Source: Anthracocystis setariae (lineage: Eukaryota; Basidiomycota; Ustilaginomycetes; Ustilaginales; Ustilaginaceae). Taken from it: a stretch of DNA of 64,000 bases. The translations under genes and the position numbers were made by a program. Below are positions 4,501 to 30,041 of the stretch, in pieces (within the stretch, counting starts at the first letter, position 1; the number at the start of each line of letters is the position of its first letter). The stretch covers positions 1,240,001 to 1,304,000 of the forward strand of contig CAKMXJ010000002.1 of the NCBI GenBank assembly GCA_928724745.1, given 5' to 3'. The notes under the pieces are model-generated. The model saw only the letters and a list, made by a program, of their open reading frames with translations, searched no databases and was not told the DNA's origin.

Positions 4501-5002
4501 GCACTGTGCTTAGCATCGATCAACGCCAGCTGTTGGTCGGCATCCTCGAGCTCACCCATATCGCCGATTAGACACCAGTCAATGGCCGACGGGCCAGCAT
4601 CTCCAGGAGGACCGGGATGAACAATAAGTGTCATCCAGTTGTTGTAAACCTTCGGTGGGACGTGCTTTGTGAGAAAGGGGCAGATGATGAGGTCCGGCTG
4701 AGCGAGCTCGGCAGCTTGAATCATGAGCTCGGAAGCTAGTGCATATTCGACCGTAATTGTGTGCCCCTTGGATCTCAGCACGAGCGAAGTTCGCTGAAGC
4801 AAATGAAAGGCAAAGCTTTGGTCAGGCGCTGAGGACTGGAAACAACGGAAGCCATTGTGGGTTGAACCGGCTTCTACGGTCCAACGGTCTCGAGATCGTA
4901 ACGGTGGCTTGGTAGTGTGGGCCGTGACTAGTTTTCTTGTGGGTGATTGAGACTTACCTGCGCGAGAGAGTTAAAAGCTGTGCAAATGAAGAGGATCTTC
5001 AT
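1560..5002 (-). CDS. HypX-like formyltransferase/enoyl-CoA hydratase fusion
   Basis: Two exons. Exon 1 (5002-4958) encodes MKILFICTAFNSLAQ and ends at CAG|GTAAGT. A 164-nt intron follows, and exon 2 (4793-1560) resumes in phase 0 with RTSLVLRSKGHTITVEYA, giving about 1,092 residues. The first ~280 residues resemble the formyl-tetrahydrofolate hydrolase/formyltransferase half of HypX/HoxX, including HPGPPGDAGPSAIDW at about 74-88. Residues about 390-600 are a crotonase (enoyl-CoA hydratase) domain with the GNAAAGGLALATAADF stretch. Known bacterial HypX makes CO for O2-tolerant NiFe-hydrogenase; smuts have no such hydrogenase, so the fungal role is unknown. The last ~400 residues are Ser/Arg-rich and disordered, with a Lys-Glu repeat. 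This tail is not part of bacterial HypX and may be a regulatory addition. Confidence 0.85.
2103..2152. repeat. hexamer tandem repeat (CTCCTT)n
   Basis: About eight imperfect copies of a CTCCTT unit, in frame inside the HypX-like gene. On the minus strand they encode an alternating Lys-Glu run. Because the unit is 6 bp, length changes keep the reading frame. Confidence 0.9.
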
Positions 5003-7522
5003 TGTTCGACGCAAACCAATGAAGTGGTTCAACGGGAACTTGGTATACGAAATGCCGGAGGGTCGAGTACCTAATGCGAAAAGATGAAGTAAGGTCTGCT
5101 CGACCAATTTTACGAAAGTGTCGAAGGGTCACTGATCGTTTGATGTGATAGATATCGAGCCGGTAAGAACTGAGCGGTAAAGTGGATGGAACCTAGAAGG
5201 AAGACAAAGCAGCTGTAGAAGAAACGGAGTCGGAGACAGAAGATCAGGATGTCGGCAGGGAGCAGTAAGGCTGTCAAAGATCAAGACGAAGGATGTGGAA
5301 GAGGAACAATGAAAGAAAGGTTTGGATGGTCAGTCAGTATATGTACCGGGAGGCGAGGAGCGAAAACGGTTCAAGACCGAGTGGAGCAAGAGAATAAGGG
5401 ACTGAAGCTAGACTGCGACAAACTGGATCAAGTGCAGCCGAGCTGAAGAATGAATGTCCATCGAAAACGAGAGCACCCGCCTGATCCTTTGCATTTGACG
5501 CTGATGGTAGGTCGCCCAGGGGTTTGGAATGAACGAAGCAGGAAATCAGACGGGCCACTGCAGGAGCACCATCGAGGCGAGTACTGCACCGTGCAAGCAA
5601 CCAGGTGGGCGCTATACAGAGCGAAGCACAAGGTGGGGAGAGACAACGAGCTGCATAGAGTTCACTGTGCTTCTCGGCATAAAGCATGCGATGTGACTTT
5701 CTCTGTTCGGCTCAGCGAAATGAGATGACCATCACGCCGATAGTCGCATGAAACCGGCAAGCGCGGGAGTCTGGATCGAAATGCGTCGCCAGAATCGTTG
5801 ACATGCCAAAGACGCAAGAGCAAGGGGTGTGGGAGGAGCAGGGAGACCCGGTCAAGCAAGAAGCAAGGCGGCGATCGGCATCGAACAGGAAGCCGATGAC
5901 AACCGAAAAGGGGAGTCTCGGGACAGGAGGCTAAAAGATTCACAACTTACTGGCAAGAGATTGAGCAGAAGCGAAAGAGAGAAGAGTCGCCCCGACTGGA
6001 AGAAGGAAGAGACAAGGAGGTTGACCAGATGGCTTGCAGAGGCGGCGCTTGCTTGATGCCGCAAGGAGGAATTTATGACGAAAAGAGCCGGAGGTATGGT
6101 GGAGGGCGGGCTTACAAGGGCGGAAGATGGGATAGTAAGCCAAGGCACGGGAAGCGGACACAGTAACGAGCACTGGCTGTAGCGAGCACTTGGTCGTAGG
6201 CCTTACGATGAATCACGAGTGGGTTACAGCACCAGCACTTGCGAAGCAGCAAATAAGTTTGCGTCGAGGACGAGGCTATCAAGGCAGGGGGTGGGGTGGG
6301 AAAAGCTGTTTGCTTGTGCGTCTGATACGAGTCCCTTGCGGATGGCAGCAGAATGCAAGGGGTCCAATAGTGCAGACGCCGCGAGAAATTCGGCAAATTA
6401 CTGGAGCTTTTTTTTTTTTTTTTTTTTTTTTTCCCTTGGTTATATATGAAAAAGTGCCTGCTGGAAATGAGGTGGGGAAACGGCTGAGCAGAGAAAACAA
6501 GAGATGAGGAACAGGCGAGAGGGCGATTGATTATGGCAATCGAGAGGAGGAGCAGAGGGGACTCGGAGTGACCGACGGTGATGGAAGGGAAAGTGGTTTG
6601 AGAAAAAAAGGGGGGGCGCAGGGAGATGCCAGACCCCAGCAACCGATCTTTATACAGCAGACGGACAGGGGGAGAGAGCTCGATGTGGTTCTTGCAAGTC
6701 AACTTGGTGGCAATTGTGAAGGTAGCGTCGGCTTAGTGACGGTGGAAAGAAATGAAAAGTTTGCTGATCGTCGTCCTGTCGCTGACAGAAATGACTTGCG
6801 AGGATCCATGAACAAGGGCAAGCAAGGCAAAACGACTTGGGATTTGTTCTACAATGGGCGTTGAAGGGTCTCACATGAGGGTGCAACATGGACTGTTCAA
6901 AGTTGCTGCAACGGAATTCAATGCGAAGGGTCCGAGTTGGGGGAAAGCTAACCACAAGCTACAAGAATGTGGTAACAGCTGGGTGCGGTACATGTTGGCG
7001 TCCCAAGCATACCGTACACACGGAAACAGAGAAAGCAGCGTTGCCATTTCTTGCCAAGACTTTGTTTGTCTGCGGATCTGGTTTGCGTCGCTCTTGCCTG
7101 GTCAATCGAACGTCGAAGTTGATTGCCACCGGCAACTGAACCGCTTGAACATGCGTGGGTCAACGGAGAATCGAGCTTCGTCCAAAAATGAGAACATTAT
7201 TATTATTATTAAGATCATGATGAAGGGAAAAGCTTGATTCTGTTCGTTGTGTTCAAGGCGACATCGGAGCTTGGAATCAAAGAGCGCACTACTACCACAC
7301 TTGCTTTACTGCAACGCTGGGCTCAAGAATCTGGCATTGCGCGTTCCTGTCTTGCACCCTGTCCTGTTTGTGTGCAGTACAGTGCAGTATACTGTGGCGT
7401 ACTGTACCATCTCTTGTGCCCAAAAATTTAACCATATGCGGACTGAATGTTCGGTCCCTTGAAGCTGCGAAGCGAGGGCTTGCATATGCCACATGCAAAG
7501 CGTGAAACACTTTTTATTTCCC

Positions 7523-18252: not shown

Positions 18253-21200
18253 TTGCATCCAAATATTCATTTGAAAAAGCAGTCCTTTTTATTGGATGGG
18301 AAAATGAGGGTTCCCAACACAAAACTACATGTTAGAAGTGACTTTGACCATGTAAAAGAGTTTTGTTGCACCTTTGCATTCCAGATGTTGTTTGACCTGA
18401 ATGCCTATCAAGCTGCAGGCAATGTCTTGCTCCTTCTTGAATTTAAAATCCCAGTGGATTGGTGGCAGACAGTGCAGGAAGCCAACTTGGTCCTGTCAGG
18501 ATTGAGGAATGGAAGGTCTTCAAACAGACCAGGGAGGGTATAGTAACTTTCACTGTAGGCCATTTGCCATATTAGCATAGGAAGTCACAAGATCCCAATA
18601 CCGTATACTGTACTATGCCCCTGTAAAAGTCTAATTTGAATGCTCAGATTTTGTGGCAACTTTGATCCACTCCAGACAACCTCCTCCTCTGATCCCTGCA
18701 AGAGCAAGCCAAGCTGGCTTTCAATCACCTGCTTGTTGGGAGGCCACAAAGGGAAGGGAAGGGAAACAGGACCTGCTCAATTGCAGGTTGTGCACAAGCC
18801 CCCTCGCTTCCAATTCAACTGCAAGGTCAAGTTTTGCAGCTTGAAGGGATACATAAACAATCCCAGCAAGTACCAGTTGCAGCCGCTGTACAACGCAGGC
18901 AGAATGCCGTGCCTTGAGCCAGTACTGCTGCTTGGCCTCCTTGCAGACAAGGATCAGGTCTTTGCCAAGGGGAGTAGCATCGCGAATGTAATCAACACCA
19001 CCAATGAAACATACTTTGATGATCATGACCTCCTTGCCATTCCAATGCAAGATGAGGCTGCCAACCAATTTGTTTTCTGGGCTTTTGAGATGGGCTCAGA
19101 TGAGCAATGGGCAACTTCGCCAACAACGCCCCTGACCAATGCTATGCTGGGTGACCAAACCAACAAGATGGCTCTTGTTGCAGGTCTGCCTGACTATCGG
19201 CTCTACACGTTGAGGCGTTTGACCATTCAGACGCTTGACCGGACTTCTGTCACCAAGGGAGCCAAGCGCCTGTCTGTTGGCCATTCCCTTGCTTTGTTGA
19301 CCATTGTCAAGAGCTACCTTGCACGTCGAAACGTTGTTGACATCCAATGACTTGTGCGAGATGGCAAGGAGCACAAGGATCGCATCATGTCACTGTTAAG
19401 CGCCAAGGGTCTGACAACCTCCTGACTGTGCGGCGTGGCACGCGGTGCGCGAGGCTTGGGCTTGAGAGCGCGTGGCGGGAGTGGTGGCCACGAGAGTCAC
19501 CGAGCACGATCCTGAGGTTAACGGTTCTACCGTTGGGTCTGATATTCGCTATTACTCAAGGTAACTAAGAATACATTCGACGGCGGACAACAAGGAGGTG
19601 GCGCGCGACTCCCACCTTATAAGGCATCACGCGTGCCACGCGCCGCGCGCCTCTTCCTGGAAACACGCGGCTCGCGCGCGGCCCCGACTCACGACATATG
19701 GGTTGGGCCCCTGTGTCGAACGCTGCGCGGCGCGCCTCCTTTTTCAGGAAGCGACGCGCGGCGCGCTCCTCCATTCCCAGCATCCCCCGTAGCTCGCCCC
19801 TTAATGGTAACACCCCGCGTGGCACGCCCTCTCCCCAGCGCGGCCGTCGGACAGCACGCTGGCTGAGAGCCTTCGCCCAGCCGTAACAGTCACACGGTCT
19901 TTGTCACATACAGGCAATCCAGCACCAGCCATCAAAGCTGGATGCTGGCAGCTCTTCAGAGGTGGAGCAGTCACCAACAATGCAGCGGGTCAATCGTCTG
20001 CACCAGGAGGCGGTCAGGACCCTCAAAGCTGCCACCGTGGCCAGCTGCTCATCCCAGGAGTGCCAAGCCCTGCAAAGGGAGGTTACAAAATGCAAGCGAC
20101 GTGTGACCAAGACACGCCGGCAGCTCAGGCTAAGAGCGCTTGTCGAAAAGGCTTTCCAAGCCGATCGAGATGACACCATTCGCAATCTGCTTGGCTCAAA
20201 TTCCAGTCCAGATGCCGCTGCTCAAGAAGCAGAAAGCGAAGAAGACGAGGCCGAGGTTGGACAGACAGGCGCAAGCGAGACATGGCTGGAACGGGCTGCA
20301 GCCATCCCAATCTTGGTGCATGCAACGTCTTTGGCACCCGACCTGGTTTCAGACGAGACTCAACCAGACACCAAGACGCCACCCGCTGCACTCAACCCTC
20401 TCAATGCCGAACCAATCAGAGGTAATGAGACTGGTATTGCTTCCCTGATGGATGCCTCGATGCCTGCGCCTCCAAGCCTGCCAGCTCCAGCTCCATCTGA
20501 GACTGCAGATGATCTCCCATCCCTGCCAGCACCAGACGCTCAAGCGGAGCGTCTTTGCCAAGCATTTGTGGATCTCCACAACGCTTTCAGCTTGGCGCTG
20601 GCGCTTCCACAGCCTGACTACCGGCTGGTGAAAGAGGATGGCGTTTGCTGTCCCTTATGCAAAGTCTGGGCTGCCTTGAACAATGACAATGTTGGCAACC
20701 AGAATGGACTGTTTGACTCCATCAAGCAGAGCACAGGTGGGATGTGTCCTTGGTGCAATAAACCCTTCCGCACCGTCACAAAGAAGAAGGGAAGTGGGCC
20801 TTGCACACGCTGGGATATCATCATGCATGTCACAGCGTGTTCCAAGCCCCACATTCAGGATCGATATGTCTGGGTGTGCTTGACATCCTTGGCCGGTCAG
20901 CACTGCCTACATCGCAGCTGCAGCAGAGCACCGCCACTGCTCAGCCATGACGATGCCCTGTCCAAACATGTCTCAGGTCATTACCAGCAGACCAACGCAA
21001 GCATTTGGGGCCTCCTCAAGTTTGATCAAGCTTCTTTTGACTGTCCTTATTTGCAGGACAGGCAACTGTGCAAATGGACAGTGGCCTCCTCGCATGACCG
21101 GCCCATCTCAAATCTGGCGGTGTTCTGCCACTTCGACCAAGTACTGCATATGGCACAACAAATGGCTCTTTGGTATCAATCAGGCTGAGCAGCACTATGC

Positions 21201-21705
21201 CAAGCATGTAGATGCCTTCCTCAAGGGCTATGGCGAGCCCAAGTGGGAACAACTTTGCTGTAGGTTCTGCCTGGTGGATGAGGACTTGTCTATGGCCGCA
21301 AGAGGGCATCTTTACAAGGAAAACCACAAGCTGGTCCGACATGTGTGCATGCAGCACATCTATCCAGACCACCAAGAACTTTGAGACTGTCCTTATTGCC
21401 CTTTGCAAGTCCCTGTGCACGACTTTGTGGACCACCTGCACAATGAGCACAATCTCAAGCTCAGGCCGCACGCCATCCCTGCTTGTCAGCATGATCAGGT
21501 TGGCAAACCATGGGACAAAGCTGGCAGGGATGTCTGGCTGCAATGGATCAAAGGCCTTCCCAACACACCTGCAACCGAAGCGCCTCAGCCACAAGCCTCA
21601 GTTGCAGGCAATAGTTGCTCTGTGATGCGAAACGCACGCCTGGGTTGGCACAAAATCGGGACGACAATCAACCAAGATAGTCTGCCTGTTCTGCAGCATC
21701 GATGA
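18253..21705 (+). pseudogene. DUF3435-type tyrosine recombinase, decayed and split by a solo LTR
   Basis: The open stretch at 18640-19350 carries features of the DUF3435 tyrosine recombinases (Starship-captain/Crypton-related): KGYINNPSKYQ, MPCLEPVLLLGLLADKDQVF, then LYTLRRLTIQTLD, a GHS motif, and YLARRNVVDIQ. These fit the catalytic Arg, His-like and Tyr region. An in-frame TGA follows VDIQ. A 495-bp solo LTR (19394-19888) with a GTCAC duplication interrupts the gene; leaving out the LTR and one duplication copy, the frame continues into 19894-21188. That part holds a coiled, Arg-rich region and Cys/His zinc-binding modules (CPLCKVW, CPWCNKPF), followed in other frames by CRFCLVDEDL and CPYCPLQVPVHDFVDHLHNEH. 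The family typically has such a zinc-rich C-terminus. The 5' end is missing and several stops are present, so it is inactive. Confidence 0.7.
19394..19888 (+). mobile_element. solo LTR 1 (Copia-like, TGTTA...TAACA), CpG-rich
   Basis: It begins TGTTAAGCGCCAAGGG and ends CCGTAACA, with the target duplication GTCAC at 19389-19393 and 19889-19893. No gag-pol lies between, so it is a solo LTR of 495 bp left by LTR-LTR recombination. It interrupts the recombinase relic. It is strikingly rich in CpG and GCGC (especially 19600-19880), unlike its relative at 22104. Orientation follows the TG...CA reading and is arbitrary without internal sequence. Confidence 0.85.
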
Positions 21706-22103
21706 AGCGCTCACTCAAACTCAGCAAACACGGAAGTGGGACGCACAAAAGGGAGCAGGTCACATCGCCAATGTGCCCTTGTTCTATTTGACCAAAGCTC
21801 ATCAGCTGTGCCCAGCTTGCAGCATCAATGTCAGCTGTGCCCGGCTTGCAGCATCAATATTGCAACGCCCAAACTTCCGCCTCATCTCGATGGAACCCTT
21901 GGCATCCACCTCTCTGGAAAGAAGTCAGAGGCCTTGTCTGCCAATTTTTCAAATCTAGGGGGACTGGCAGCAGACAAGCAACACTCAATATTCCTTGCCT
22001 GAGTCTCAGGTGGCTGTTGCAAAAGCAAGGCCAGCTCTACTTTTCAAAAAAGGTTACAGGCACCCTCCCACTTGATGAGATGTAAAAGAGGTTGGGTCCC
22101 TGA
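21706..22103. other. recombinase tail remnant with 29-bp tandem duplication
   Basis: This is decayed sequence after the last recognisable zinc module. A 29-bp unit starting TCAGCTGTGCCC is repeated in tandem at 21802-21830 and 21831-21859, with one A/G difference creating or losing a CpG. Short frames with CPACSIN motifs are produced by this repeat. No intact gene is seen. Confidence 0.55.
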
Positions 22104-22350
22104 TGTTAAGCGCCAAGGGTCTGACAACCTCTTGACTGTGCAGCGTGGCACATGGTGTGTGAGGCTTGGGCTTGAGGGGGCATGGCGGGAGTGGTGGCCA
22201 CAAGAGTCACCAAGCACAATCCTGAGGGTAACAATTCTACCATTGGGTCTGATATTCACTATTACTCTAGGGTAACTAAGAATACAATCGACAAGCGGAC
22301 AACAGGGATGTAGTGCGCGGCTTGCATCCTACAAATGCATGATTGTAAGA
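22104..22350 (+). mobile_element. LTR copy 2 of the same family, CpG-depleted, 3' end unclear
   Basis: It starts TGTTAAGCGCCAAGGG and aligns with solo LTR 1 for about 245 bp before divergence. Almost all differences from copy 1 are CG in copy 1 against TG or CA here. I find no matching 5-bp duplication, so this copy is truncated or rearranged. It sits just before the 404-codon ORF. Confidence 0.7.
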
Positions 22351-22462
22351 ATGTCAACAGCCTCCTTGGCACCACAGCGGCCCGCTAGAAGAGGCCGCCA
22401 AGTCCGTCGCTGAGGCCCAAGCCCATGGCCACGGGTGGTCATGATCTGCCCATTTGGACAAC

Positions 22463-22470
22463 GTTTAAAC
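22463..22470. promoter_or_regulatory. GTTTAAAC palindrome upstream of the 404-codon ORF
   Basis: An 8-bp perfect palindrome 30 bp before the start codon. An identical one occurs 41 bp after the stop (23755-23762). Function is unknown. Confidence 0.3.
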
Positions 22471-22499
22471 TCCCAAGGCTCTGCATCTTGTAATTAACC

Positions 22500-23714
22500 A
22501 TGAGTGGCGTACAGCTTCCCCAAAAGGCCAAGAGCACCAATGTCGAAGGCGAGGGTACCCCTCAGCCGAGGAGGCCCATCGGAAACGCCATGAGGCTCGC
22601 CGAGTTTGACATGTTGAACACCTTGCATCAAGTGCTGACTGGAATCAGCCAGACTCAGGATATGTTGCACGCCCTTGTAGACCGAGTTGCCGCGCTTGAA
22701 TTGCACATAGCAGACATCAAGTCTGAGTTGTCGGCGGGTCACGTGACGATAGGCCAAGGGGTCAGCGCCGGTCCGGATGATAGCTACAGAGCTAGGAGGA
22801 GCGTAGTGTCCGAGTCAGGGAATTCTATGCCCAGGGATTACGACATGGTCAGCAATCCGGGTTTGAGCTCTGGCGCTGCGACTCCCAGGAGCGACTACAC
22901 TCGCCAGATTCCGGGCTTCCAAGGCTCGGGACCGCAGCCTTGGTTGAGCAACGCGAGGTCCCTCCTGGTGCCGATGGCCTCCATGCAACTGTCTGGAGGC
23001 GACTCCAGGCGCCTGGGAGCTGAAGCGATCCGCGGCGCAGCAGAGGCCAGAGAGCAGGAGGCTCGGTACATGGACGCATACTTCCGCAACAGGGCAGATC
23101 TGTACTGCCGGTTGTTCATGGGCATGTGCAACACGATACTGAGCTCAATCGAAAAGCTGAGGTTTGTCGGGACTACACCCCCGTTGTCCAAGTCTTACAA
23201 CAGGGTGAGGTCCGTTGTCAGCGCACTCGTCAAGGTGAGGAACGTATTGCTCCAGGAGCGCAAGGACTCATCCTTCAGGACCGTGGCTCGTAATCTCCAG
23301 GTGAGAGACAAGAACACTTACTCCGGCATAGGCCCTGCAACGTTCGTTACCATGTCCGACAACAGCGCGACAATAGAGGTAGCCAGGACCTTCAAGGCCA
23401 TATTGGCGCAGCTGAAGGAAATCCCTGAGTGCCTCCCCAAGCCCTGTTGCACCATAGTGCGGCTGATCGATGTCAGTGTCACCGCAAGCTCATCAGAGTT
23501 TGCCATCGACTATGACCGAGCTCACTCTGCCCTGGTCGAAGCCATCAGGCAGGATGAGTTCTGCAGCAAGATTCAGCATGCGTGGTTGCCAGCCTACGTG
23601 GAGATAAGGCTTACGACCAACAAGACGCAAGCTGAAGCCCTTGTGCTCGCCTCCCAGGCCCGGCACCGTGCTGGCTCCGTGGTGGCCTCATCCGTAGCCA
23701 TGTCGACATACTAG
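22500..23714 (+). CDS. uncharacterised 404-residue protein of the RNAP-bearing relic
   Basis: An intact frame from ATG at 22500, with no in-frame stop. I do not recognise the family. Residues 1-30 are polar and Pro/Lys-rich. Residues about 33-80 look like a coiled coil (LAEFDMLNTLHQVLTG to VDRVAALELHIADIKSEL). Residues about 85-165 are Ser/Gly/Pro-rich and probably flexible. Residues about 170-404 are a mixed alpha/beta-looking globular part with two Cys in KPCCTIVRLIDVS. No signal peptide or membrane helix is evident. It lies tail to tail with the Rpb2-like relic (82 bp between the two ends) and is bracketed by GTTTAAAC palindromes at 22463-22470 and 23755-23762. Layout suggests a structural or nucleic-acid-associated partner gene of the same element, but that is inference. 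Its intactness among decayed repeats is notable. Confidence 0.6.
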   Translation: MSGVQLPQKAKSTNVEGEGTPQPRRPIGNAMRLAEFDMLNTLHQVLTGISQTQDMLHALVDRVAALELHIADIKSELSAGHVTIGQGVSAGPDDSYRARRSVVSESGNSMPRDYDMVSNPGLSSGAATPRSDYTRQIPGFQGSGPQPWLSNARSLLVPMASMQLSGGDSRRLGAEAIRGAAEAREQEARYMDAYFRNRADLYCRLFMGMCNTILSSIEKLRFVGTTPPLSKSYNRVRSVVSALVKVRNVLLQERKDSSFRTVARNLQVRDKNTYSGIGPATFVTMSDNSATIEVARTFKAILAQLKEIPECLPKPCCTIVRLIDVSVTASSSEFAIDYDRAHSALVEAIRQDEFCSKIQHAWLPAYVEIRLTTNKTQAEALVLASQARHRAGSVVASSVAMSTY

Positions 23715-23754
23715 GCATCGATGGACGCCGTCTCCTGCAGGGCCCACGGCTCGT

Positions 23755-23762
23755 GTTTAAAC
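23755..23762. promoter_or_regulatory. GTTTAAAC palindrome between the convergent 404-codon ORF and the Rpb2 relic
   Basis: Identical to the palindrome at 22463-22470. It sits in the 82-bp gap between the two converging reading frames, where a shared terminator would be expected. Function is unknown. Confidence 0.3.
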
Positions 23763-24516
23763 TAGCGCGAGGAAGGCAGGGTGCCGAGGGGTGCATTCAC
23801 AGACCGGTCGTGTACTTAAACGACGAAGGGACAATCTCCGAGGGGTCCAAGCCCAACGTCGACGAGCTACGATGGTCCAAACTTGCCGTGCTAACTGCTG
23901 CTGACTGCAGGGCTTCATCATCCGCCGTGTCATGCTGCCTGCGAAGTGCCCTTCTAGTCCGCACAGTTGACGAGCTGAGGCCAGCGGTGTATACTGACAT
24001 CATGATATCGAAGACCACAGTCGAGTATCGTGTCACAACCTGAGTCGTGGCTGGCGAGCATCCCTGACAGTCGCACAGAATGCTCAGCCGCCTACATCCG
24101 CTGCACACCGTCACGATGCACTGATCGCTAGAGTCGATCATTTCGGAAGCGCAGTGCTGCAAGCCCTGGCATTGGATCATGAGCAGGTCCATTTCTGCCA
24201 TTCTGACGGACGAGCCTCTTAGCCTGCTACTCGGGGCAGAAGGAGATGGCGGCACAGAGGATGCATACTGCTGCTTGTCCCGGGCAAGATGAGCCAAGGG
24301 CCATATGCGTATCACCCCATAGTCCGCTTGGCATTCGACGCTGGGATCCATCGCAGTCATGACAGGCCTCTGAGCTCTCCCCATGCTTGTGAACGTGCAC
24401 ATGGTGGGCTTAAGGCTTGCGCTGTCCTGACCCATCGATGATGTGACGTAAGGATCGTACACCTTCGAGGGATCGAAGTCTGCAACGTCCATGACTGAAG
24501 CTCCAGCTCTTGCCTC

Positions 24517-24874
24517 TGTTAAGCTCCTGGGGTCTGGGAATCTCGGAACGTGGTTGTGTGTCGGTATTGAGGCCAGGGGCGTGGTACCGGGTGTTGCTTC
24601 CGGGATTGTTGCCAAGATAGCAGAGCGGGTGAGCGGGAGATTGGGAGAAGGTCTGATATTTCCACCTACTATAGTGAGTAAGCTAAAATACAATCAACAT
24701 CCTAATGTGAGTGTGATGGGATCTAGCCATGAGATTATGTGGCCTCCCGGATACCCCCTGGGAGATGCCGCAGTCTGCCCCAATCACCGATCCGGGACTT
24801 TATTGGGGGAACTACCCCCGCCCATGTTAATACTAAAACCAAACACTAACTCTCCCGATATCCCAATCATAACA
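24517..24874 (+). mobile_element. solo LTR 3 inside the Rpb2-like gene
   Basis: 358 bp, starting TGTTAAGCTCCTGGGG and ending ATCATAACA, with the duplication GCCTC at 24512-24516 and 24875-24879. It shares start, end and the GGTCTGATATT block with LTRs 1 and 2. It splits the Rpb2-like frame between the GQVWEA motif and the following acidic segment. The host frame is continuous if the LTR and one duplication copy are disregarded, so the insertion is later than the Rpb2-like gene. Confidence 0.88.
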
Positions 24875-25489
24875 GCCTCCCACACCTGGCCGAGAGTGCT
24901 TCTATTGTGAACAGAAGACGCTGCGATGATGATGTGGGGTCTGAACTTGGCCCCGCTAGCCACATCCGTGCACTGAGGCCTCCACTGATGCCTGACCACC
25001 TTCGAGACGGTCTGCTTCTGGCCGTGGGATGTGGCTATCTTATCCCCAGGCAGCAGGCCGACTGAGTTCACCGCGGCCACAATGTATGTCGCTCCGGCCT
25101 TGGACACGCCAACCTTGGTCACCTCGCCATCGTTGGACGGCCTCCACCACTTGTGGGTGGACCCTGAGACCATTGATCCCACGCTCGGTGCATCGGTGTT
25201 CTCAGGCAAGGGGTGCACTATCTTGCCCGCAGTGGCTGTAAGCCCCAGCTTGTGAAGCTTGTCACTGACTATCACCGAGTCCTCGTAGGTGTACTTGAAG
25301 TTGGCATAGAGAACTATGAGATTCAAGCCAGGGAGCTCGGGGACCATCGGATGCGAGGATTGGTCTGTCAGCGGTCGGGCGCCTGGTAAATAGGCCGATC
25401 TTGTTTCGAGAGCGGTGCGGTCCTGAGGGGCTGGGCCGCCGAGTTTGTGATACACGCCTGTGCAACTGGGAAGTACGAGGTGGGTTGCG

Positions 25490-26476
25490 CAGGTACGTCG
25501 GCGGCCCCATGAAGACGATTAGGCCGCACTCAATTTGACGGCGGTGGAGTGTGGGCTTCTCAACCGCGTTCGACCTATTACCAACTGACGCTGTTGGCGC
25601 TCCGTTCAGAGGCAGCACGGCGTACTTGGTACTACAGTGTGTTAGCCTGGTGTCTCGCAAGCGCACTTGACGAGACAGAAGGCTGGTTGACTAGCTAGGT
25701 GGACACTGGACGTGATCACCAAGCTGTTACGGTGATGGCTAAGGGCCTGACGTCCCGGCGTCAGCTTGTAAGCAGCGGCTATGCGCTGCGGTGTCGGTAC
25801 AAGTACCAACAAGGTCTAGCTGTTCTCCGACTTGAACGGAGGCACGTGAGAAAGCTGCAATGCTACTGTATTGCAACTTACCAAACTAGATACTGGAATG
25901 ATTGTGACGACGACGTTAAGAAGCTATACTGAGCTGAAGACTGGTGATGTAAGAAGTAGAGTGGATGAGGAGCTCATCCACTACGAGCCAGATGAGGAGG
26001 CCTTAAGTAAGACCGCTCGCAGCCCCTATGGCACGGCTGGTCCGGCGCTAGCCTATTGTCTAGCTGCACGGCCTGCATGTGCGCTTGAGCTGACCGTGAT
26101 ACCACCAGCTGATCACCTCCAGGCCTCTGAGAGCGCCAGATATGGTGTCCATTGACTGTTGATCACCTTGAGATGGTCTTGTTGCGATCCGGCGTCTCTG
26201 CGAAGTCAAACGGCCGCGATCTGATCCTTATGAGGCAACGCGGCTGAGAGAGACGCTCTAAGCCGCGCTCTCATCGAGAGCGGCCGAGAAGGTGTTTCTC
26301 CACCGCACTGACTTCATCGCCCGTGGCAATGTTAATGCTAAATGCGCTGCACTTCAGGCAGCTTACCGTGTCTTGCCTGATGTGAGGGCGGCCGAACAGG
26401 AGTCTCTAAGCCGTGCTTGCCCCAAAGGCGGCCGGAACTTGAGTTTTCCGCTGCCTCAGTTCCGCCGCCTGTAACA
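25490..26476. other. unexplained 1 kb segment interrupting the Rpb2-like relic
   Basis: It lies between block 1 and block 2 of the Rpb2-like frame, where relatives have only a few tens of residues. Short frames occur on both strands (for example 25699-25932 and 26292-26474, plus strand) but show no motif. Its outer sequences read TGTTA (25640) and TAACA (26476), like this LTR family, but I find no 5-bp duplication. It may be a fifth LTR-like insertion, a second element, or family-specific sequence. Confidence 0.35.
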
Positions 26477-27430
26477 TGGTCCATGACGGCCTTGCCTAGA
26501 GGCGTGACGACCAGAGGCGGAGACTGGCGAGTCGGAGTCACCGCTGAGGCTATGCTTATGTGCGGATGAGCTATCGCCTGCATAGACATTGACGTGCCCA
26601 GTGCCGGCCTCGGAGCGTCATTGTACAGGCTGTATGGGAACAGTAGCACTGAGGACCTCACGATTGACAAGGGTGACGACGGCACGGCCAGGGCCACACC
26701 CAGCTCATTCCTCATCTGCTCAGACCCAAGCACGATCGAGTCCAGCCATAAGGCACTTGCAGGGATCACTCGGCCCTCCTCGTGGTATCTGCCGCTGACG
26801 CATTTCATCAGACAGCCAGACGAGGGAGACAGGGTTACAAGCCTCTCGGCTCTGAACACATGCAGGCTGGGAGTATTCGGTCCTCTCATCGCCCTCCAGC
26901 ACTGTATAGCCCTCTTGACTTGGGCTTCCGTAGCATCGAACTCTATGCCTGCGAACCAGCAGTGCCAGCGAATTCCACCTCTCTTGGCTCGGTCGTCCTC
27001 CGCTTGGCGGTCTCTGCGCGGCTTGGAGCTTGCGATGGGCGTGCATAGCGCTTCTACTATGGCACTACACTTCGCAAGGCAGTCGGGCGTCATGACCCGC
27101 ACGGCCACAGAGTCTGCGAGGCATCTGATCTTGCCTGCGTCCACGTTCATGGTCGTGAACTCCGCGTCGATGAAGTACTTCCACTCAGGCTTGTACTTGC
27201 GCATATCTGGATCACTGACAACCTCGTATGGGTCAGCCTCGCCGAACGGCCTCATGTCCACGACGGCGTTGTTGTACACCGATCCGTACATCGTCTCCTT
27301 GGACGGTATGGCTTGCTCTCCTCTGTACAACGTCTCCCACAGGGTGCGTGCCTCGTGCTGGGACACGGTGCCAAGCTCCATGATTGCTGTGTGGTTGAAC
27401 ACATGGATCGGCCCACTCTCAAATGAGTTG

Positions 27431-27540
27431 TGGCTGGCAGGCGTCTCTGGCAGTCGCACAGAATGCTCAGCCGCCTACATCCGCTGCACACTGTCACGAT
27501 GCACTGATTGCTGGAGTTGATCATCTCGGAAGCGAGACCA
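27431..27540 (-). repeat. second copy of the Rpb2-like zinc-site segment
   Basis: About 110 bp nearly identical to 24050-24160, again encoding the CIVTVCSGCRRLSILCDCQ region on the minus strand. It is fused directly upstream of block 1 of the main relic, so a second, mostly deleted copy of the element abutted the first head to tail. Several differences from the main copy are CG to TG changes. Confidence 0.75.
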
Positions 27541-27594
27541 AAGGTTCTGACCACTGCAGGGCGGCTTTGCGGTTGGGGTATTTGGCAGGGAAAC

Positions 27595-27925
27595 TGTTCT
27601 GCTCCTGGGGTCTTAGAACCTCGGAATGTGGTTGTGCATCAGTGTTGAGGCCAGGGGCGTGGTACCGGGTGTTGCTCCCAGGATTGTTACCAAGATAGCA
27701 GAGCGGGGAGTTGGGAGAGCGGGAGAAGGTCTGTGATTTCCACCTACTAGAGTGAGTAAGCTAAAATACAATCAACATCCTAACGTAAGTTGGTTTGCGC
27801 CAGGATGTAGATTTTACAAGCACCCCGGGGGAACGCCGCAGTCAGTTCCAATCCCCAATCCAGGAGAGCCATCGGGGAAACCCACTCCTGCTCACTGTAA
27901 TAACAAGTCCCGGTCATTCATAACA
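27595..27925 (+). mobile_element. solo LTR 4
   Basis: 331 bp, starting TGTTCTGCTCCTGGGG and ending TTCATAACA, with the duplication GAAAC at 27590-27594 and 27926-27930. It is closely related to solo LTR 3 along its length. It has no internal retrotransposon sequence. Confidence 0.85.
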
Positions 27926-27930
27926 GAAAC

Positions 27931-28329
27931 AAGGGCTGCAAATGACACGCTTGTGAAATGCACTAGAGTGATTGATAGTGTTGGGCAATCAGACATGTAA
28001 TGGTTTTTGGAGCTCCGCAATGTTTCTTGTAAGTTGTTGGTCTAAGAAAGGGTGAAAAGCCACCAACATGCAGCCTGTGATTAATTGTGTGGTTTCAGAT
28101 GGTTGCTACAAGCCTATCGTAACAGAGACAGGTTGAGTGATGCTCTTAGAAAGGGGTTGGTGTGTGCAGGATCTAATAAGGCATATCACACCATGCACCT
28201 TGTTGTTGAATCTGTCAGGAAATGGCAGCTGATGTCCTTCATAACTGAAGAGATCAAATGACCATAACTCAACCATTTCACAATAGATATTGCCCAAAAT
28301 TTGACAAGCAAGTTTCCCTTGTGTTCCTA
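27931..28329 (+). other. decayed coding-like stretch left of the Tc1 element
   Basis: The plus strand at about 28098-28260 reads WLLQAYRNRDRLSDALRKGL and on to MSFITEEIK before a stop, preceded by an intron-like GTAAGT...TTTCAG. An upstream frame around 27950-28020 may be a preceding exon with a TAA. I do not recognise the protein. It is probably a relic of another mobile-element gene. Confidence 0.35.
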
Positions 28330-29766
28330 CACCTTTTCTCAGTCAAGTTTGGTGTCCACGCTGTCTACTTCAAGAGCAAAACCGGTAGCAGCTTCTTTCT
28401 TCAATGTAGTTGTTCGATATCATGTATAAATTTCGGTAAAGAGCACAGCAAGTTTGGTAACTATTGCGATCCTGGCCGAGAGGGTGGCCAGCTTCAGCTA
28501 CGGCAAGCCAGCGTGTTGCTTTAAGAATCCAGCCCATGCAGTCTGCTGGTGAGACGGTGTCGAGGACTGCATGGATGATGTTGACAATGCCATTGTGCAA
28601 CCTGAGCTCTTGATGTGTGATGACAGGCTTTACTTTTGAGAACATGTTCTCAGCAATGTTCAACCACAGCAAGTATGGTGGTAGGAAGTTGATCTGATGA
28701 CTGTGAGCATTACAGGCGTTGACAAAGTCTCAATTGTGATGAAACTTGACGTTATCCATCACAAAAGTTGTTGGCTGTCCATCAAGCTTTGGAAAGATCT
28801 CCTCTTCAAAGAAATCAAGGAGCTTCGAAGCGTTCGAAGCTCCCAGTGTGCAGTGACCTGAGACAACTCCATTACAACTGACAGCTACAAGTAACAATAC
28901 ATTGGTTCCACATTGTGCTGGACAATGACGCTGTCAAGCTTGTTGGCCTCTTGATGCCCGGCCTTGAGTTCTTGTCATGTGAAGGTTAAACCCAGCTTTG
29001 TCAAAAAAGATGCAGTCTGAGTAAGACCTTCCTTTGAGATGGAAGTCTTGCGCATAGCGTTGCCTGGTGTGCTTGGTTGATTTGCTGTTGTGTTGAGCGT
29101 GTTCCACACTCATCCTCTTGAGTGTCATGTGAGCACAATTGCCAAGTGCCTAGCCAATTGTTGAGAGGGAGATGGAACCAAGCGCTGGAAAGTGCTCAAG
29201 GAGCTGCACTTGCATCTCCTCAAGTGTTGCTCCTGGAATTTGATGTAGGTAAGCAATGAGATGCTTGATATGCCTGTCTTGAAGCTGTTGTTCTCTTTGA
29301 GCTCCTACTTGTGGAGTTGCTTTGATACCATTGCTGGATTTGAACTTCTCCCAGATGGAGAAGACAGTGGAGTATGGAAACTTGAACCGTTTGGCAATGC
29401 TTGTGCAGCTCTCTCCTCAATTGAGAGCTTCAACAATCTTCAGGCAGAATTCATTGCTTACAGTTCTGTTGTGACATACCATTGCATTTGTATAGTGAAC
29501 AGTACAGGTTACAGGAGCTGGGATGGTGGTAGTGGTACTGTAGTGACAGAGCTATGGATGGATCGATGGTGTCTTGATAGCTCAGTTCAAGGACCAAGGC
29601 TGCTCAGTCAGATGCCATTTGGTTACCAACTTCATTCCTTGGCTTTGCCAATTTTGCTTCACACACCATACCGACACACTTGGATCATGCCAAACAAGCA
29701 ATTTGATCAAGCTTGATTATACCGATTATCATTGGCTGGCATACCAAACTTGACTGAGAAAAGGTG
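28330..29766 (-). mobile_element. Tc1/mariner-type DNA transposon with TIRs and TA duplication
   Basis: The left terminus CACCTTTTCTCAGTCAAGTT (28330 onward) and the right terminus ending at 29766 are near-perfect 24-bp inverted repeats. TA dinucleotides flank both ends (28328-28329 and 29767-29768), the hallmark of IS630-Tc1-mariner insertion. The 1,437-bp element encloses one degenerate transposase on the minus strand. All parts are AT-richer than the host genes. Confidence 0.92.
28450..29482 (-). pseudogene. IS630-Tc1-mariner transposase, degenerate
   Basis: From an ATG at 29482 the frame reads a helix-turn-helix region (ESCTSIAKRFKFPYSTVFSI), then TLEEMQVQLLEHFPALGSIS, then the DDE core. 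The first acidic motif reads CIFFDKAGFNLH, with Lys where the family has Glu after the Asp. The second, FVMDNVKFHHN, is present. The third acidic position lies in IAENMFSKVKPV. In-frame TGA and TAG codons interrupt the N-terminal half (near 29419 and 29150), another stop follows the second Asp motif, and further frame slips occur. The stops fit C-to-T decay. The protein is not functional, though the intact TIRs could still be moved by a relative. Confidence 0.85.
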
Positions 29767-29923: not shown

Positions 29924-30041
29924 GGGTCACTGTGGGATTCGAACCCACGACCACCTCTATATTCTAGAGCCTCTTTTGACTTAGTGTGCAACACACTGGG
30001 ATTTGCCCGAAAGAGGTATCCTACCACTGGACGAAGCAACC
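29924..30041 (-). tRNA. tRNA-Pro (CGG) with a 46-nt intron
   Basis: On the minus strand the acceptor GGTTGCT (30041-30035) pairs with AGTGACC, using two wobble pairs, and the discriminator is C, as usual for eukaryotic tRNA-Pro. A D-arm follows with GTCC/GGAT. The anticodon stem CCTCT pairs with AGAGG, with loop TT-CGG-G and anticodon CGG at 30009-30007. An intron (30005-29960) follows position 37. The variable loop is TGGTC and the T-arm is GTGGG-TTCGAAT-CCCAC. The 3' CCA is not encoded. It marks the right limit of the repeat island. Confidence 0.87.

Follow-up and report, generated by a model that had tools for sequence, protein, structure and literature searches.

An Rpb2-like RNA polymerase relic in Anthracocystis setariae, probably the chromosomal fossil of an undescribed small virus-like fungal DNA element

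Background

The cytoplasmic virus-like elements of yeasts are reported to own a reduced multisubunit-type RNA polymerase (RNAP), specified by ORF6 and ORF7 of pGKL2, of which ORF6 is described as a beta subunit fused with part of beta' (PMC6211774). In Rhizophagus, a 1.5-Mb region is reported to carry a B-family DNA polymerase together with both large RNAP subunits, and the same source states that, as of 2023, no double-stranded DNA (dsDNA) virus infecting fungi was known (PMC10640383). Here we describe a 64,000-nucleotide stretch of the smut Anthracocystis setariae, hereafter the window (C2:1240001-1304000; genome of 21.5 Mb in 36 contigs), which contains the broken remains of a gene for a very divergent Rpb2-like (beta) RNAP subunit. 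The window probably holds the chromosomal fossil of an undescribed small virus-like fungal DNA element.

The RNA polymerase relic

The relic spans positions 23797-27534 of the window. As the first-pass annotation had it, it lies in a repeat island: the surroundings are repeat-rich, long terminal repeats (LTRs) are inserted within the gene itself, and the whole is flanked by ordinary host genes, with those for RIC1 and a PQ-loop protein to one side and those for a bromodomain protein and a chain of phenylalanyl-tRNA synthetase to the other. The gene and its inserts are laid out as follows (TSD, target-site duplication):

23797..24516, minus strand: RNAP block 3, the end of the hybrid-binding domain, the clamp with a CxxC-x6-CxC cluster and the family C-terminus ending PSSFKY; family profile 251.2 bits
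24517..24874, no strand assigned: insert B, a lone 358-bp LTR, TG...CA, exact 5-bp TSD GCCTC; at least 44 genome matches, nearest other copy 93% identical among the matches listed
24875..25365, minus strand: RNAP block 2, containing YEDSVIVS, GDKIATSHGQKQT and HNRSTLGQVWEA; family profile 226.6 bits, PF00562 30.1 bits
25366..26476, no strand assigned: insert A, a lone 1111-bp LTR, TG...CA, exact 5-bp TSD TGGTC; at least 40 genome copies, nearest other copy 92% identical among the matches listed
26477..27423, minus strand: RNAP block 1, covering the family sequence from approximately residue 150 as far as the PRPALGTSMSMQA region; family profile 319.9 bits
27424..27534, minus strand: incomplete duplicate of the RNAP tail (zinc cluster), lying upstream of block 1, 90% identical to 24041-24151; 42.1 bits
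27594..27790, no strand assigned: a further, incomplete copy of the insert-B LTR family, 87% identical to 24516-24712

The three minus-strand blocks were confirmed as parts of one Rpb2-like gene. Their Rpb2 order, proposed from the translations alone, was borne out. With a family profile built from 13 relatives and excluding the window sequence, each block scored 227-320 bits and none of 20 dinucleotide-shuffled windows matched at E<=100; this resemblance is not due to chance. Single-sequence Pfam searches gave modest evidence: the block 2 frame (24784-25518) exceeded the PF00562 cut-off of 23.4 bits, the block 3 frame (23797-24693) reached 19.1 bits with PF04560, under its cut-off of 32.1, and block 1 matched no family. 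In searches of the PDB by sequence, block 1 gave nothing credible and block 3 no match whatever.

Blocks 1, 2 and 3 comprise 313, 153 and 237 stop-free codons, respectively (2109 coding bases together). Block 2, like the other two, is open; the 360 codons originally given for block 1 come down to approximately 313, the rest of its 378-codon frame being LTR and duplicated tail. Block 2 carries GDKIATSHGQK, with Ser, as had been claimed, at the position where all three host Rpb2 copies have Arg. YED, GDK, HGQK and R-T-x-x-Q, which we take to be catalytic and nucleic-acid-binding residues, are all retained in this block, and the predicted C4-type zinc cluster of the clamp is present as CxxC-x6-CxC.

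Block 1 is 28-40% identical to full-length relatives, and its alignment starts at approximately their residue 142-151; the first sixth of the gene is gone. Where the 5' part should stand we find the duplicated gene tail of 111 bp, followed by the partial insert-B repeat. The relatives' proteins continue uninterrupted across both insert sites, and the gaps between the blocks exist because two LTRs inserted there. The repeat families of inserts A and B (at least 40 copies each) include many pairs which, read from coordinates, lie about 8.6 and 7.8 kb apart, the pattern expected of LTR retrotransposons. There are no stops in the 2109 coding bases, where neutral change of 4% would give 2.9 (P(0) 0.054). 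A firm age for the relic, considered from the 92-93% identity of the nearest LTR copies listed, was rejected, as these need not be the true source copies of the inserts.

A family of divergent beta subunits

Fourteen RNAP relatives were found (P0001-P0006 and P0008-P0015); P0016-P0019, which have the full usual Rpb2 domain set, were left out of this count. Three are from named organisms, Ustilago esculenta (P0002), Clydaea vesicula (P0014) and Chytriomyces sp. MP71 (P0015), and the other 11 are nameless. The contigs of 12 of the 14 measure 4.7-28.0 kb (maximum 27,952 bases), with six at 19,924-27,952. The apparently full-length proteins are single frames of about 790-862 amino acids. P0002, deposited as the DNA-directed RNA polymerase A0A481SH47 and belonging to the same family as the window relic, is a 633-amino acid gene model lacking the clamp and some internal stretches.

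PF00562 is above its cut-off in all 14 relatives; among the 13 with a clamp match to PF04560, P0012 alone (33.9 bits) exceeds the cut-off. An alignment of 13 rows shows no variation at the Lys residues of GDK and HGQK, at PR of the fork or at the four Cys of the clamp; YED lacks its Asp, and NRxT its Arg, in one row each. The family shares with cellular Rpb2 (Pol I, II and III, archaeal Rpo2) the domain order, the predicted fold, GDK...HGQK, R-T-x-x-Q and the clamp zinc. It differs from it in its length, in the compact CxxC-x6-CxC cluster, in reading HGQK-[QF]-T rather than HGQKG, and in never having Arg before HGQK: this residue is absent from the 14 relatives and from both A. setariae copies and present in the three host Rpb2s. 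PHROGs matches of the family proteins were RNAP-like only.

AlphaFold2 (AF2) models predict an Rpb2-like fold, with one domain region aligning at 3.5-5 A over 225-250 residues. Over whole chains the TM-score against Rpb2 is about 0.24 and the root-mean-square deviation near 30 A, which indicates that domains alone were modelled, not their arrangement. The top Foldseek match of these models in the PDB was poxvirus Rpb2, and Rpb2s of poxvirus, pithovirus and mimivirus ranked high in BFVD, the fold scores being tied.

In the global tree, computed by a quick method and without P0005, P0002 and window block 1, the family formed a single clade (SH-aLRT, approximate likelihood-ratio support, 100) apart from host Pol I, II and III and from 18 viral-contig Rpb2s. 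The viral rows came solely from IMG/VR, and named asfarvirus, poxvirus or mimivirus sequences were not among them; of 29 loci, three lacked a 700-amino acid open frame, and eight of the 26 usable were dropped as near copies. Identity between the family and the three host Rpb2s is 25-31% over approximately 210 residues, the best value belonging to a second A. setariae copy on contig C28. Both results uphold the original description of a very divergent Rpb2-like protein outside the host clades. Grouping with host Rpa2, Rpb2 or Rpc2 at orthologue distance, the mark of a Pol I, II or III subunit, was not found. In the family tree the window blocks were unresolved and did not group together with support.

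The second copy on C28

The genome contains three ordinary Rpb2 loci and this fourth, divergent one, which has a 793-codon open frame 45% identical to block 2 of the window and 38% to block 1. It begins at approximately residue 79 of the relatives, the 5' part having been lost here too, and scores 42.8 bits with PF00562 and 18.4 bits with PF04560, again under 32.1. In the family tree it is sister to P0002 of U. esculenta (support 100/96). Disrupted RNAP copies are embedded in the host chromosomes at two places, on C2 (1.62 Mb) and C28 (1.93 Mb), with host genes around both, as is expected of fossils of a mobile element. By eye, a possible long interspersed nuclear element stands where the C28 gene breaks off at its 5' end; Pfam matched nothing in the open reading frame (ORF) tested there.

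The convergent neighbour

One intact gene adjoins the relic:

22500..23714, plus strand: 404-codon ORF for a helical protein, convergent neighbour of the RNAP relic; relative P0007, no Pfam family

It stands tail to tail with the RNAP gene, about 80 bases separating their stops. Its sole match in the protein database is P0007, likewise of 404 amino acids and 50% identical across 100% of the length, from source contigs of up to 19,224 bases. On C28, P0007 also finds a match at the corresponding position and in the corresponding orientation; it is weak and broken (E 7.4e-5, three TGA and one TAA), its two pieces lying either side of an LTR A copy with a 5-bp duplication of its own, CCAAT. Given the weakness of this second match, it is with reserve that we take the RNAP and 404-codon genes as a putative conserved pair. 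An RNA_pol_L_2 match on P0007 (13.8 bits against a cut-off of 27) was taken as chance, and the fold model of the 404-amino acid protein was too poor to use (predicted local distance difference test score 39.4, two-sequence alignment). Neither member of the 404-amino acid pair has a relative in IMG/VR, and P0007 has none among plasmids.

A linked DNA polymerase

P0015 (1114 amino acids, a partial gene model) contains a PF00136 DNA_pol_B domain at residues 25-241 (84.9 bits), followed by the RNAP. By sequence, the polymerase part is nearest in the PDB to cellular pol alpha chains. In this one case the two would be neighbours on one strand even if the gene model has merged two genes. Searches of other collections with the RNAP returned 16 plasmid records, bacterial rpoB-like and 27-32% identical over 23-25% of the query, and six phage records at 22-25% identity.

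Origin of the relic

The first-pass annotation suggested that an undescribed RNAP-bearing element had become integrated here, and this is the reading with the best support, in view of the short contigs of the relatives, the B-family DNA polymerase beside one of them and the conserved neighbour gene. The putative free element would encode this beta subunit as part of a multisubunit RNAP of its own, joined to a beta' likewise encoded by the element; that RNAP would transcribe the element's genes, and the B-family polymerase, also its own, would copy its DNA. By whatever route of integration, fragments of two distinct lineages, each with RNAP and convergent neighbour, would have entered the chromosomes at the C2 and C28 sites; later LTR insertions, plus 5' loss at both, would have silenced the fragments. 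The broader proposition, that autonomous dsDNA virus-like elements of approximately 20-28 kb occur from chytrids to smuts, own a B-family DNA polymerase and a multisubunit RNAP (with a compact beta that branches off outside the tested Rpb2s of cells and large viruses) and leave chromosomal fossils, seems to us evenly poised between true and false.

Several observations weigh against the element as the source of the relic. The short contigs of the relatives may be mere assembly fragments. The beta'-like partner sought in this genome was not found, PF00623 giving three hits and an Rpb1 motif pattern the same three places, and the matches of the P0015 DNA polymerase are three long frames, presumably the host's. 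The RNAP has no relative in IMG/VR or among bacterial or archaeal genomes. Neither a free element in intact form nor a terminal repeat, a capsid gene or a beta' turned up, the relatives' contigs being unread and capsid, packaging ATPase and VLTF3 not searched for. The window 404-amino acid protein itself matches C28 at only E 0.012 (3.2-kb target), the neighbour match there being weak. Finally, the third-position GC (GC3) of the relics, 0.65-0.73, equals that of the host RNAP genes (0.68-0.72), as for a resident gene; this points to prolonged residence in such hosts, or to nothing more than a common base composition.

Host-like GC3 would also suit an old nuclear gene of fungi that arose from host Rpb2, encodes a subunit of a fourth polymerase and is now lost or decaying here, as would the presence of two chromosomal copies and the annotation of the named relatives in fungal genomes. 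Such an origin is quite unlikely: identity to the three host Rpb2s is low and the branch long and separate, no matching fourth Rpb1 was found in the genome, a DNA polymerase precedes the RNAP in frame in P0015, and the named relatives are confined to chytrids and Ustilaginales, with the gene truncated at both loci here. Unlikely, too, is a fragment of an endogenized large nucleocytoplasmic virus (asfar-like or other Nucleocytoviricota) with Rpb2 as its surviving marker. The giant endogenous viral element reported from Rhizophagus (PMC10640383) supplies the precedent of a virus-type RNAP and B-family DNA polymerase fossilised in a fungal chromosome, the Foldseek ranking points the same way, and a B-family polymerase reads into the chytrid relative P0015. 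Unlike Nucleocytoviricota, the present family falls outside the viral-contig Rpb2s tested and has a shorter subunit, and its contigs of at most 28 kb and two-gene fragments differ from the insertion described in Rhizophagus (PMC10640383).

The likeness to pGKL2 drawn in the first-pass annotation did not hold. A relic of such a cytoplasmic linear plasmid, likewise a fungal extrachromosomal element described as owning a multisubunit RNAP (PMC6211774), is very unlikely: the 13 relatives reaching or passing the clamp show PF00562/PF04560-type domains and, like the C28 copy, no Rpb1-type domain, which indicates a stand-alone beta rather than a beta-beta' fusion. The polymerase linked to it in one chytrid relative is PF00136 and pol alpha-like, not protein-primed PF03175, which in this genome is confined to two places, both on the 73.8-kb contig C24. 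As a further difference from pGKL2, the GC content of the relic is about that of its host. Chance resemblance or an assembly artefact might be argued from the low single-sequence Pfam scores. The profile scores and shuffled controls refute chance, and with exact TSDs at both inserts and a second locus on C28 this explanation is hardly credible.

Other features

The two PF03175 polymerases of C24 (C24:70520-71803 and C24:3262-4557) include one frame that is open with TGA read as Trp; C24 looks like mitochondrial DNA carrying plasmid-type polymerase genes. The host Rpb2 at C11:116100-120197 has a 1730-codon frame in which a stretch beginning CLTVDHDVLTKHGW directly follows SPRNVYQ. Pfam gave Rpb2 domains only for this gene; the stretch looks like an intein. 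Inteins are reported in genes of this kind (PMC1635734).

Elsewhere in the window the following were noted:

5001-7000: strong strand bias, GC skew 0.25-0.34, AT skew up to 0.32
19887-21188, plus strand: 433-codon frame, single-copy in the genome, with Cys-rich motifs and a weak DUF3435 match (16.7 bits, cut-off 25.8)
28370-29416, minus strand: decayed Tc1-like transposon, with weak DDE_3 and Sleeping-Beauty-type helix-turn-helix matches
29924-30041, minus strand: tRNA gene interrupted by approximately 50 inserted bases (Rfam 46.1 bits), missed by ARAGORN

Conclusions

The titles and abstracts of the open-access literature, to which our search extended (subscription journals and preprints lying outside its scope), yielded no description of such an RNAP family, and it is apparently undescribed. 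If the proposed elements are real, they would join the yeast virus-like elements as a second instance of a small element with a reduced multisubunit RNAP, and their intact single-ORF proteins would offer material for studying a minimal RNAP. Small self-replicating, self-transcribing elements in chytrids and Basidiomycota would also fill part of the gap in dsDNA viruses of fungi.
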